In this document: positions 12,353 through 52,384 of the stretch, piece after piece
Numbering within the stretch: the first letter of the stretch is position 1
Layout: every line of letters starts with the position of its first letter
Assembly: GCA_018654745.1 (NCBI GenBank)
Contig: JABILA010000056.1
Location: 1 to 64,000, forward strand
From: Alphaproteobacteria bacterium
GTDB taxonomy: Bacteria; Pseudomonadota; Alphaproteobacteria; UBA2966
DNA length: 64,000 nt
Reading direction: 5' to 3'
Made by a program: the position numbers and the translations under genes
Notes under the pieces: generated by a model
Told to the model about the DNA's origin: nothing
Database searches by the model: none
What the model saw: the letters and a program-made list of their open reading frames with translations, nothing else

Positions 12353-13605
12353 TCAAGACCGTCAATGCTGGCGATTTGAACCTGGCGGACCACATCCGGC
12401 CCGGCGACATGATCGTCTGGGGCCAGGCTTCATCGGAACCTGTCGCCTTGATTGAGTTGCTGATTGAACAGCGCGCGACCATTGGCAAGATCAAGGCCTT
12501 CATCGGTCTTTCCCTGACCCGGACCTTACAGCCGGAACATACCGACTTCATTTCCCTGACAAGCTATGGCGCGCTGGGCACAAGTTCAAAGCTGGCGGCA
12601 GCCGGTGTGCTGAGCCTTCTGCCCTGCCATTATTCTTCGATCCCGAACCTGATGGACAGTGGGCGCTTGCCCGTGGATGTTGTTTTTGTCCAGATCAGTG
12701 AACCCGGACCGGATGGCACGCACAGCCTTGGTTTTTGTAACGACTATATGAAAAATGCCATAAAAAAGGCGCGCTTGGTGATTGCTGAAATCAATCCGAA
12801 TGTGCCGTGGTCGCGCATGGATGGGCCACTGGATGAAGAGAAAATCGATATTGCCATTTTTGCTGACTATGTGCCGGCTTCCCTGCAGACACCGGAACCA
12901 GGAGAGGTCGAACTGAAAATTGCGGCCCACGTGGCCAGCGTGATCGAAGATGGTGCGACCCTGCAATATGGCATTGGCGCGATCCCATCGGCTATTCTGA
13001 ATGCTCTGGGTGGGCACAGGGACCTGGGTCTGCATTCCGGTTTGATATCAGACGAAGTCATTGACCTGATTGAAGGCGGTGTGATCACAAATTCTCGCAA
13101 GGCGGTGCATACCGGCATCAGCATTGGTGCCATCGCCATTGCAGGCCCCAGGCTGAAAGACTTTTTGCACGACAACGCAGCATTTGAAATGCACCCGTCA
13201 TCTGTGACGCACGGCCCTGCCACGCTGGCCCGGATTGATAACCTGGTCGCCATGAATTCAGCACTGGAAGTCGATCTCTATGGCCAGATCAATGCGGAAC
13301 AGGTTGGGGACAGATATCTGGGCGGCATTGGCGGACAGGTGGATTACATGCACGCCGCAACCACAGCGGCAAACGGTATCTCGCTGATTGCCATGCCGGC
13401 ATCATTAGGTCGTTCCGGCGGCAGCAGGATCACGACAAAACTTGGCGGCCCCTTTGTGACGACCTGCCGCACGGATGTCGACATGGTGGTCACCGAATTT
13501 GGCATTGCTGATTTGCGCGGGAAAACCCTTGAACAGCGCGCCGCCAGCATCATCGACATCGCTTTGCCTGAATACAGGGATGAGTTGAAGCGTTTCCGGA
13601 TTTGA
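12349..13605 (+). CDS. Acetyl-CoA hydrolase/transferase family protein (class I CoA-transferase, Cat1-like)
   Basis: GATLQYGIGAIPSAILNALGGHRDLGLHSGLISDEVIDLIEGG; ATG overlaps the CaiB stop (ATGA). Confidence 0.92.
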   Translation: MIKTVNAGDLNLADHIRPGDMIVWGQASSEPVALIELLIEQRATIGKIKAFIGLSLTRTLQPEHTDFISLTSYGALGTSSKLAAAGVLSLLPCHYSSIPNLMDSGRLPVDVVFVQISEPGPDGTHSLGFCNDYMKNAIKKARLVIAEINPNVPWSRMDGPLDEEKIDIAIFADYVPASLQTPEPGEVELKIAAHVASVIEDGATLQYGIGAIPSAILNALGGHRDLGLHSGLISDEVIDLIEGGVITNSRKAVHTGISIGAIAIAGPRLKDFLHDNAAFEMHPSSVTHGPATLARIDNLVAMNSALEVDLYGQINAEQVGDRYLGGIGGQVDYMHAATTAANGISLIAMPASLGRSGGSRITTKLGGPFVTTCRTDVDMVVTEFGIADLRGKTLEQRAASIIDIALPEYRDELKRFRI

Positions 13606-48985: not shown

Positions 48986-49636
48986 CTATTCCGCGGCCAT
49001 GGGCTCGTCGAATTCCAGGAATATGCCTGGCATTTCGACAAAGTCCGGCATCCGCTTGATCCGTGCCAGCCAGCGCCGGATGCCGTGATAGTTGCCAAGG
49101 TTAATGCCGCCATCAGGCGCCAGGGCCACATAGGGGAAACAGGCAATATCAGCAATTGAGGCGCGATCACCTGCCAACCAGTATTCACCCACAAACTCCT
49201 GCTCGATCAAATGATCATCGAGAATACGGAACGCCGCGTGCGCGCCCTTGCGGGCTGCATCCACATCAAGATCAAATCCCAGCACATCATGTAACCGGGC
49301 CGCAGACGATGTCGCCGTAATTTGATCGGCAAAGGCGAGCCACATCATGGTCTTGCCAAGGGCGACCGGATCGTCACGATCAAACCAGGTGCCTGCGGCG
49401 TCATATTTGCTTGCCAGATACGCAAGGATGGCTTGGGCATCCCGGATGACAAAGCCGTCATCATCCAGAACCGGCAACTGGCCCAATGGATTAATCGCTT
49501 TGAAGTCAGCATTGCGGTGTTCGAGGCCCGGATAGAAATCAACCGGAACAGTTTCATAAGCCACACCCAGAATGTTCAGGAACAAACGGATTTTGTAGCA
49601 GTTTCCCGACGCCGGATAGTCATACAGTTTGATCAT
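48986..49636 (-). CDS. Glutathione S-transferase family protein
   Basis: MIKLYDYPASGNCYKIRLFLNILGVAYETVPVDF; FKAINPLGQLPVLDDDGFVIRDAQAILAYLASKY. Confidence 0.94.
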   Translation of the reverse strand: MIKLYDYPASGNCYKIRLFLNILGVAYETVPVDFYPGLEHRNADFKAINPLGQLPVLDDDGFVIRDAQAILAYLASKYDAAGTWFDRDDPVALGKTMMWLAFADQITATSSAARLHDVLGFDLDVDAARKGAHAAFRILDDHLIEQEFVGEYWLAGDRASIADIACFPYVALAPDGGINLGNYHGIRRWLARIKRMPDFVEMPGIFLEFDEPMAAE

Positions 49637-49650
49637 GTCTCTATATTCCT

Positions 49651-50544
49651 TCAGGCCGCACGACTGTTGGTACTGGCTGCATCTTTCTGGACACCAAACG
49701 TAATGTTCTTTTTCTTGAGCCAGCGACGATAGGTCATGGATGTGGCATCGGCGCGCGCCGGCATTTCGGTGCCTGGTGTCAGCGGCAACAAGGCCGGCAA
49801 CTGGTTTTCCAGGATCGGCCTGTCTTGCAAAAATATGGTTTGCTGGAAATGCCTGAGCTCAACGTCCGTGTTTTCTTCATCAAAGGGCAGCACGAAGGAA
49901 TGGGCCTCACAAAGATCTTCATCAAGGGGCTGCACAAATAAGCCAACCAGATCCCAGGCACCGGGTTTGATCGGGCAGGTCTTATACAGCACCGTTATAA
50001 AAGGTGACGTCACACGATATTCATATTCGGACTGCTGGCCATCGGTTGCCGACTTCGCCGCCTTTTGCTGAAAAAACGAACAGTCTGTTGCCCAGACTTC
50101 ATCCACATCTTCGCGGATTTCTGCCTTGTAGTTGGCAACTTCCGTTTGAGGTTCGGCCCCCAGATAGTTGGTATGTACATAGGGGAAATGCCCAAGGTCG
50201 AGAAAATTTTCAACGACCCTCAAGGGCGATGTTTTTACCCGGACATAACCAATGGTCACCAGCCTGCGCCCCTCTTCTTCAAACTCCGGCATCTCAAGCA
50301 GATCACGTGGCGTGTCGCCCAGCGTCACAAAAATGTGGCCATAACGTTCCTGAACAGGAAGCGCGCGACCTTTGTTTCCCGCCAGATCAGTCTCCCAAAC
50401 CCCGATAGCACCATCAGCCGTTCGTTCGGCCCGGATATCCTGTCCCAGCAAACGCGTTACCCTGGGTTTGTCATGGGTCGCATCTTCCAGGCGGCCAATG
50501 ACCAGCCATTCGTTCAAAGCAAAGGCATCTGTTGTTTTTGCCAT
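49651..50544 (-). CDS. Rieske-type oxygenase catalytic subunit lacking [2Fe-2S] Cys/His ligands (VanA/NdmC-like)
   Basis: Mononuclear iron motif VVENFLDLGHFPYVHTNYLG (D-x2-H-x4-H) and carboxylate region IFLQDRPILENQLPALLP; no CxH...CxxH anywhere, while a residual Rieske-fold frame is present (LNEWLVIGRLED...LPVQERYGHIFVTLGD). Confidence 0.88.
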   Translation of the reverse strand: MAKTTDAFALNEWLVIGRLEDATHDKPRVTRLLGQDIRAERTADGAIGVWETDLAGNKGRALPVQERYGHIFVTLGDTPRDLLEMPEFEEEGRRLVTIGYVRVKTSPLRVVENFLDLGHFPYVHTNYLGAEPQTEVANYKAEIREDVDEVWATDCSFFQQKAAKSATDGQQSEYEYRVTSPFITVLYKTCPIKPGAWDLVGLFVQPLDEDLCEAHSFVLPFDEENTDVELRHFQQTIFLQDRPILENQLPALLPLTPGTEMPARADATSMTYRRWLKKKNITFGVQKDAASTNSRAA

Positions 50545-50553
50545 CAGTTTTCC

Positions 50554-51327
50554 TTAGGCCGAAATTTTGAGTTTGTTGATCTGACTCTGGTCATTGCTTT
50601 CAAGGCGAAGGCGCAAATCTGCCAGCCAGCGCGCGACATGCCGCTGAACGGCTGGCATTTCCTCTTTCGACCCCATATCGCTGACCTGGACATGCACACC
50701 CGTTCTGTCGTCATCAAGGGCTTGCAGGGCCAGAATCAATTCTTCCGTCGTTGCCCCGACCTGGGCCGAGATCCGCACAAGGTTATCATTGAGGTTGCCA
50801 TATATATATGTGACCGGCGTACCGGTCCCGTCCTGCCCCGCGGCAAAGGTCGGGAAGACGGCTTGCATCAGCCAGTCGCGAACAGTCGAAATTGATGCGT
50901 CCAGATAAACAGATCGCACCGGCACCATGTTTTCGCCTTCAAGTTCTGAATATTCGGCAGGCATTGCGGCACCGTCATCACCGACATTGACCACGATAAA
51001 ACCGTTTACTTCCTGACAGACAAAGGTTTTGGCGCAAATGGTTTTTGGGGGTTGCAGGGTTGGGTGGGCCGGGATGTTTTTACAAACGCCAGCGCCATCG
51101 AATTCCCAGCCATGATAGCGGCATGCCAGCTGGTCGCCGCGCACGAAGCCCATGCTGAAACGCATGCCACGGTGGGGACAGCGATCTTCAACCGCATTGG
51201 CCTGGCCACTGCGCTGGCGCCAAACGGCAAGATCCTTGCCGGGGGTCTTCACGGGCATCACGCTGCCTTCAAAGAGACCTGCACTGAGCCCTGCGACGAT
51301 CCAGGAAGTCTGTTCCATCCAATTCAC
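50554..51327 (-). CDS. Stand-alone Rieske [2Fe-2S] protein with non-catalytic C-terminal domain
   Basis: CPHRGMRFSMGFVRGDQLACRYHGWEFDGAGVCKNIP = CxH-x16-CxxH; the C-terminal region lacks a D-x2-H-x4-H iron site. Confidence 0.9.
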   Translation of the reverse strand: MNWMEQTSWIVAGLSAGLFEGSVMPVKTPGKDLAVWRQRSGQANAVEDRCPHRGMRFSMGFVRGDQLACRYHGWEFDGAGVCKNIPAHPTLQPPKTICAKTFVCQEVNGFIVVNVGDDGAAMPAEYSELEGENMVPVRSVYLDASISTVRDWLMQAVFPTFAAGQDGTGTPVTYIYGNLNDNLVRISAQVGATTEELILALQALDDDRTGVHVQVSDMGSKEEMPAVQRHVARWLADLRLRLESNDQSQINKLKISA

Positions 51328-51409: not shown

Positions 51410-51425
51410 GTCTAATATATTAGAC
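51410..51425. promoter_or_regulatory. Perfect 16-bp palindrome GTCTAATATATTAGAC, candidate LysR operator
   Basis: Read directly; ends 2 bp before the LysR ATG (51428) in the 100-bp divergent region with the Rieske operon. Confidence 0.7.
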
Positions 51426-51427
51426 TC

Positions 51428-52384
51428 ATGAAAAATACTGGTGGATATGAACTCAAGGATCTGGCCTGCTTCGTTCTGGTAGCGCGAGAGGGCAGTATTT
51501 CTGCGGCCTCACGCCAGTCCGGCCAACCCAAGGCGACGGTTAGCTATCAGATCAGACGTCTGGAAGATGCCCTGGGCGTGGATTTATTTGTGCGCTTGCC
51601 AAGACGGCTGGAACTGACGGATTCAGGAGAACGATTTCTCAGCCATGCCCGCTCGATCCTGGCGGCAGTTGAAGATGCCGGTGAAGACATTCGACATTCC
51701 GGAGAACAGCTTGAGGGTCGCCTGAGTATCGGCGTGGCAACAGAGTTTGGCACGTCATTGGTCGGCCCCATCATTCAGGAATTTGCCCACTCGCACGCGG
51801 CGCTTGAATTCGAAGTGCAAATTCTGTCGCAAAGTCATCACTACTTTAATCATCCGGACATCGACTGCCTGATCCATGTCGGCAATCCACCGGACAGCCA
51901 GTTGATCAGCCGAAAAATCTGGGATTTTCGCTTCAGTCTTTATGCCGGAACGGAATATCTCAAGGCGAACAATCCGCCATCAACCCTGGAACACCTTAAA
52001 GACCATCAGTGCATCCAGTATCTTCACGCCCAGCCGTGGCAACTGCGCAAAGGCAGCAAGGACATCAGCCTGTCGCCGGTCAGCCGGATGCATTCAAGTG
52101 ATTTCTGGATGATCAAATATTTTGCCGTTGCAAATCTGGGCATCGCCTATTTGCCGGACTTTTTTGTTGAAACCGAATGCCGCATGAATGCCGTGGCCAG
52201 GGTGCTGCCGGAATGGACATCTGATCCGGTCCCGGTCTTTGCCTTGTACCCGAAGCACAGGCACGGAAGCCGGAAGGTCAACGCTTTCATTGATCTGTGG
52301 TCACAAAAAATTGATCACATCGAAGAGATCACGCCTTACACATTGATTCAAACCGGCACACCTGGCGAAGCTTCAAAAACCTGA
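51428..52384 (+). CDS. LysR family transcriptional regulator
   Basis: YELKDLACFVLVAREGSISAASRQSGQPKATVSYQIRRLEDALGVDLFVRLPRRLELTDSGERF. Confidence 0.95.
   Translation: MKNTGGYELKDLACFVLVAREGSISAASRQSGQPKATVSYQIRRLEDALGVDLFVRLPRRLELTDSGERFLSHARSILAAVEDAGEDIRHSGEQLEGRLSIGVATEFGTSLVGPIIQEFAHSHAALEFEVQILSQSHHYFNHPDIDCLIHVGNPPDSQLISRKIWDFRFSLYAGTEYLKANNPPSTLEHLKDHQCIQYLHAQPWQLRKGSKDISLSPVSRMHSSDFWMIKYFAVANLGIAYLPDFFVETECRMNAVARVLPEWTSDPVPVFALYPKHRHGSRKVNAFIDLWSQKIDHIEEITPYTLIQTGTPGEASKT

Follow-up and report, generated by a model that had tools for sequence, protein, structure and literature searches.

A probable split Rieske oxygenase operon of the NdmCDE kind in an alphaproteobacterium

The Rieske oxygenase structures collected in a 2025 review are all C3-symmetric, with both metal centres in one chain and about 12 angstroms between the Rieske cluster of one subunit and the mononuclear iron of its neighbour (PMC12445004). 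The one described exception is the NdmCDE complex, for which there is no structure (PMC13237722). In Pseudomonas putida CBB5, NdmCDE strips the N7-methyl group from 7-methylxanthine, and NdmE is needed for solubility and activity (PMC4408171). A full-text search for a described split form returned NdmCDE papers only, subscription journals being outside its coverage.

Here we analyse a three-gene operon within a 64,000-nucleotide stretch of alphaproteobacterial DNA (hereafter the window). Like NdmCDE, it combines a Rieske-less catalytic subunit, a separate Rieske donor and a GST-like third protein. Its features are as follows.

48986-51327, minus strand: whole triad (Rieske-only protein, Rieske-less catalytic protein, GST)
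50554..51327, minus strand: Rieske-only donor, 257 aa (Pfam Rieske E 7.6e-21; best PDB match SxtT residues 14-132)
51112..51180, minus strand: cluster ligands C50, H52, C69, H72 of the donor (CPH-x16-CRYH in the sequence)
50557..50928, minus strand: putative degenerate catalytic (helix-grip) domain of the donor, iron ligands lost (hhalign, Foldseek, alignment)
49651..50544, minus strand: Rieske-less catalytic subunit, 297 aa (Pfam VanA_C 2.6e-19; SxtT E 1.3e-22)
50320..50544, minus strand: remnant Rieske-domain frame without cluster ligands, residues 1-75 (seven predicted strands; alignment)
50173..50199, minus strand: bridging Asp D116 and iron ligands H119 and H124 (D-x2-H-x4-H motif)
49822..49824, minus strand: third iron ligand D241 (QDRPILENQ)
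48986..49636, minus strand: GST-fold protein, NdmE-like, 216 aa (Pfam GST_N/GST_C)
51410..51425, no strand: perfect 16-bp palindrome GTCTAATATATTAGAC, between regulator and operon, just upstream of the LysR gene
51428..52384, plus strand: divergent LysR-type regulator (Pfam LysR_substrate 7.7e-33)

Operon layout and architecture of the two oxygenase proteins

The three genes, all intact, are separated by 9 and 14 bp, as an earlier sequence-only reading of this DNA had it. For the Rieske protein, the true start is more likely the ATG at 51318, with GAAGGTG upstream, than the GTG at 51327; the product would then have 254 rather than 257 residues. The LysR-type protein is, from its divergent position, a probable regulator of the operon. 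The palindrome GTCTAATATATTAGAC, found once in the window, is a possible operator. A search for a sigma-70-like promoter found none.

The only Pfam domain in the donor is the Rieske domain. As the sequence-only reading had claimed, its cluster site is complete and the D-x2-H-x4-H iron motif is absent from its sequence. Such a protein could be a freely diffusing Rieske ferredoxin, serving the catalytic subunit in the style of three-component systems with no stable heteromer. The donor indeed has no fused reductase and matches the Rieske ferredoxin families NirD, AndAb and MocE weakly (22-27 bits), but its score to an oxygenase model is far higher (78 bits) and, among solved structures, alpha subunits come nearest to it. 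Moreover, a single-domain ferredoxin has about 100 residues, whereas the donor, at 254-257, has a second folded domain. Its single-chain AF2 model, of moderate confidence (pLDDT 72.6, pTM 0.73), matches GxtA/SxtT over the whole donor chain in Foldseek (TMq about 0.72). Profile comparison with hhalign relates donor C-termini to the partner catalytic domains (87% probability, E 4e-6), a kinship detectable solely with the 40-member catalytic profile: against just six full-length oxygenases the result is 0.2-0.5%, with no score. When full-length relatives, catalytic subunits and donors are aligned three ways, the donor is seen to have an intact Rieske domain and, after it, a catalytic domain that is shortened and has its iron-ligand helix replaced. 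The moderate profile score and the fold together point to a dead catalytic domain. Faster evolution of the C-terminal half (46-65% identity vs 78-88% for the Rieske half) is expected of a domain without an active site. A ferredoxin would have no need of such a remnant and, in a rooted tree, the donor Rieske domain nests among oxygenase domains. Fold and phylogeny disfavour a simple ferredoxin, which we regard as improbable, and the donor is better read as a degenerate alpha-type subunit.

The catalytic subunit shows the reverse loss. Pfam detects no Rieske domain in its 297 residues, and the D116-x2-H119-x4-H124 motif and the distal carboxylate D241 are present, as expected from the earlier reading. 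Residues 1-62 align to SxtT 3-62 and the alignment picks up again only at SxtT 104; hence, the stretch carrying the second pair of Rieske ligands is deleted and the first pair is replaced. This agrees with the suggestion that the ligand stretch is gone from a Rieske-fold frame, as does the alignment with full-length relatives, in which the ligand loops are deleted or replaced and the strands of the Rieske domain are kept. The single-chain AF2 model is again of moderate confidence (pTM 0.79, pLDDT 75.5) and matches GxtA with a TMq of 0.81. In these moderate-confidence models, both window proteins match whole GxtA/SxtT chains (TMq 0.72 and 0.81), that is, the two-domain alpha fold. A canonical alpha subunit holds both the cluster and the mononuclear iron in a single chain; the window proteins have one site each. 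Each thus appears to retain the full alpha-subunit outline, one with a dead catalytic domain and the other with a cluster-less Rieske domain.

Conservation and distribution of the split pair

The proposal that the two proteins are complementary, each having lost the site that the other keeps, extends to their relatives. The Rieske motif is found in 0/82 relatives of the catalytic subunit, and D-x2-H-x4-H is kept in 81/82. Column by column, D116, H119 and D241 are present in 44/44 relatives and H124 in 43/44. Conversely, 66/67 partner donors have the cluster motif CxH...CxxH and 0/67 the iron-site motif. The sole donor without the cluster motif, which has lost the second cysteine, belongs to the first of the Komagataeibacter sets (L019:4897-7923), made up of a catalytic subunit, this donor, a GST and a separate VanB reductase, with a full-length oxygenase adjoining. 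This set may have decayed or may borrow another Rieske domain.

Donor and GST genes accompany the catalytic subunit at 63 of 73 loci (45 split, 18 fused), and the three-gene synteny on which the sequence-only reading placed weight is thus strongly conserved. At two other loci the donor is fused but no GST was detected, and at eight no donor is in view; these eight include a contig end (L004), an orphan (L020) and loci in genomes with another donor-bearing copy (for example L058 with L060, L157 with L136). Most loci short of the full triad are contig ends or second catalytic copies. Since some loci are near-copies of one another, the locus counts are partly non-independent. The orphan, on plasmid pRA01 of Roseicitreum, is a lone Rieske-less catalytic subunit adjoined by rhamnose genes (L020:8971-9837), with no donor or GST nearby. 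At a further locus (L021:8968-13249; also L063, L064 and L005), one fused donor and one GST accompany two different Rieske-less catalytic subunits, which suggests that a donor is shared between substrates or positions.

The GST gene is present at 64/73 loci, and its product is probably an assembly scaffold. In an Acinetobacter GST (L007:6868-7500), the usual E/D-S/A glutathione-site motif is gone, as would suit a protein with a structural and not an enzymatic role.

Because half of the normal active machinery is absent from each protein, the two genes might be decay products of one ordinary oxygenase that make no working enzyme. The sequence-only reading had singled out an intact Rieske motif in close homologues of the 49651-50544 protein as the sign of such decay, and none of the 82 has one. 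The same complementary loss is common to all relatives in many families, the reading frames are intact, and dN/dS in related copies is about 0.04 for the catalytic subunit, 0.07 for the GST and 0.15-0.20 for the donor, indicating purifying selection. The window genome, moreover, has two independent triads. A pseudogene origin is accordingly rejected and given almost no credence.

The second triad of this 5.07-Mb genome lies on contig C53 (L010:12146-15673), directly after a PnrA-like binding protein; the two catalytic subunits are 53% identical. The one other genome examined from the genus has a single triad (L056), orthologous to the C53 set, which places a gain or loss of the window triad inside the genus. 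A further 13 genomes from the order gave no match. In even draws, matches occur in 7/385 genomes of the class and in 22/398 of the phylum, 7 of the latter being full-length relatives; one alphaproteobacterial order gives matches in 46/297 genomes. Plasmid records give 297 tblastn matches, mainly in Rhizobium and Sinorhizobium, with at least 80% query coverage in 224; the weaker matches include ordinary oxygenases. The split pair and its GST-like third gene are kept in dozens of bacteria.

Electron path, assembly and substrate

These features make it likely, in our judgement, that the operon encodes a heteromeric Rieske oxygenase in which two complementary degenerate alpha-type subunits are joined by a GST-fold scaffold, as in NdmCDE but with an unfused donor. 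Divergence of donor and catalytic subunit is correlated (r = 0.88, 0/5000 permutations; GST r = 0.71-0.74), part of which shared species history can account for. In the proposed mechanism, the donor cluster would be reduced by a VanB-type NAD(P)H:flavin/[2Fe-2S] reductase encoded by a separate gene. Donor and catalytic subunit would pack head-to-tail like neighbouring alpha subunits of the C3 oxygenases, recreating their cluster-to-neighbour-iron contact, and the electron would pass from a cluster histidine of the donor through the conserved D116 to the catalytic iron. The activated iron would then hydroxylate an N-methyl group, which would leave as formaldehyde, and the complex would be held together by the GST protein, as proposed for NdmE. 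Since a three-membered head-to-tail ring cannot alternate two types of subunit, a hexamer or stacked trimers would be the likelier assembly.

No reductase gene lies within the window, as the earlier reading had noted; the genome encodes its nearest VanB-type reductases on other contigs. Two VanB-type candidates in the genome (C47:58112-59059 and C80:16351-17244) were considered and left unassigned to the triad, one lying next to a BoxB-like gene, the other next to a Rieske oxygenase of its own. Reduction of the donor in trans is supported by four split loci at which a separate VanB-type reductase adjoins the triad (L019, L077, L140 and L161).

As for the substrate, the evidence comes from the relatives. 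A purine-type transporter (BMP or NCS2) lies within the fetched stretch at 43/73 loci, amidohydrolase neighbours at 21/73 and formaldehyde-oxidation genes at 7/73. With near-copies removed, formaldehyde genes were observed six times in 56 loci vs 0.2 by chance, a rough estimate assuming 33 loci, two gene copies per 5-Mb genome and 16 kb viewed. Those amidohydrolases that were examined resemble 8-oxoguanine/guanine deaminases: one scores above the 8-oxoguanine deaminase cut-off, another near that of guanine deaminase, and the rhizobial one is of the same type but below cut-off. The rhizobial binding protein closely resembles AtzT, a guanine binder (about 110 nM; PMC6834077).

However, no transporter, deaminase or reductase gene lies beside the window triad, and a heteromeric split oxygenase acting on a non-purine, for instance another N-heterocycle, has to be weighed, the purine context then concerning the relatives only. 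AtzT itself also binds 2-hydroxyatrazine (PMC6834077), and the best solved relatives, SxtT and GxtA, work on saxitoxin-type guanidinium alkaloids. We nevertheless regard this alternative as rather unlikely: 52/73 loci have a gene for a purine-type transporter, a deaminase, urate/xanthine or formaldehyde metabolism nearby, a PnrA-like binding protein adjoins the C53 paralogue, and the substrate demethylated by NdmCDE is 7-methylxanthine (PMC4408171). From the relatives, including the C53 paralogue, the window triad likely acts on a methylated purine or purine-like heterocycle. Purine N-demethylation is our best guess for the reaction, based on the neighbouring transporters, amidohydrolases and formaldehyde genes, and 7-methylguanine is a candidate substrate. 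For many operons whose only annotation is ring-hydroxylating dioxygenase, the conserved purine and formaldehyde genes hint at a function.

Relation to NdmCDE and to other Rieske oxygenases

The parallel with NdmCDE drawn by the sequence-only reading is borne out by homology: donors, catalytic subunits and GSTs are homologous between fused NdmD-type and split forms. The 297-aa protein has the iron site and, like 82/82 of its relatives, no Rieske motif, and the GST-like subunit is encoded alongside (48986-49636). In both trees, with full-length Rieske oxygenases as outgroup, the donors form one clade (100/88) and the catalytic subunits another (100/98). The comparison is with sets of the NdmCDE layout from plasmids of P. 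putida (L016) and K. pneumoniae (L018), which share the clades of the window proteins. Near these NdmCDE-like genes, two others turn up repeatedly, for a TIM-barrel protein and for a 2-oxoglutarate/iron oxygenase (L016:7851-8936 and 12394-13383; also L018). In P. putida plasmid pPp1290 (L017:9859-11614), the NdmD-like gene is fragmented into three ORFs; it is intact in plasmid p420352-strA.

NdmD carries its donor module in fusion with a flavin/[2Fe-2S] reductase. The window donor stops after its degenerate catalytic domain and lacks the flavin/NAD and plant-type ferredoxin reductase domains. In this respect, the contrast that had been drawn with NdmD stands, but the idea that an alpha-like donor is itself unlike NdmD does not. 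The N-terminus of NdmD-like fusions is the same alpha-like module, including the degenerate catalytic domain, and the domains following the cluster in split and fused donors are related (hhalign 97.5%, E 7e-12; the fused ones being NdmD-like proteins, not CBB5 NdmD). Judged from sequence, the window system is of the NdmCDE kind, the difference being limited to the attachment of the reductase. NdmD is thereby recast: what separates its Rieske and reductase domains resembles a dead catalytic domain, which could serve packing.

In the rooted donor tree, built on 116 columns, the reductase fusion lies within a single clade, in which an unfused lineage splits off first, and further unfused lineages diverge before that clade. 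With the fusion nested among split forms, the split state looks older; parsimony suggests that the NdmD-type fusion is derived, perhaps with one reversal, and the split operon appears to be the older form of the bacterial caffeine-type purine demethylating enzyme. We would extend this, at somewhat less than even confidence, to a widespread older class in which a duplicated alpha subunit subfunctionalised into two half-dead subunits on a GST-fold scaffold, NdmD being a later reductase fusion, and of which many members, notably rhizobial operons with guanine-deaminase-like and guanine-type-transporter genes, salvage methylated nucleobases such as 7-methylguanine. The split form is also a simpler system, two small proteins and a scaffold, in which interchain electron transfer can be tested by mixing or mutating the subunits separately.

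The nearest outgroup of both clades consists of full-length oxygenases beside BMP transporters (L078-L084, L162-L164). They share the transporter type and a frequent amidohydrolase neighbour, but have Rieske and iron sites intact in one protein, and no GST was found adjoining them. SxtT/GxtA and NdmA/NdmB resemble the window pair in the fold of both halves, the iron-site residues, the bridging Asp and a presumed inter-subunit electron transfer, but a single chain bears both metal sites. In three-component dioxygenases a separate small Rieske protein likewise participates; there, however, the alpha subunit retains a Rieske domain of its own, and no catalytic-domain remnant is present in the ferredoxin.
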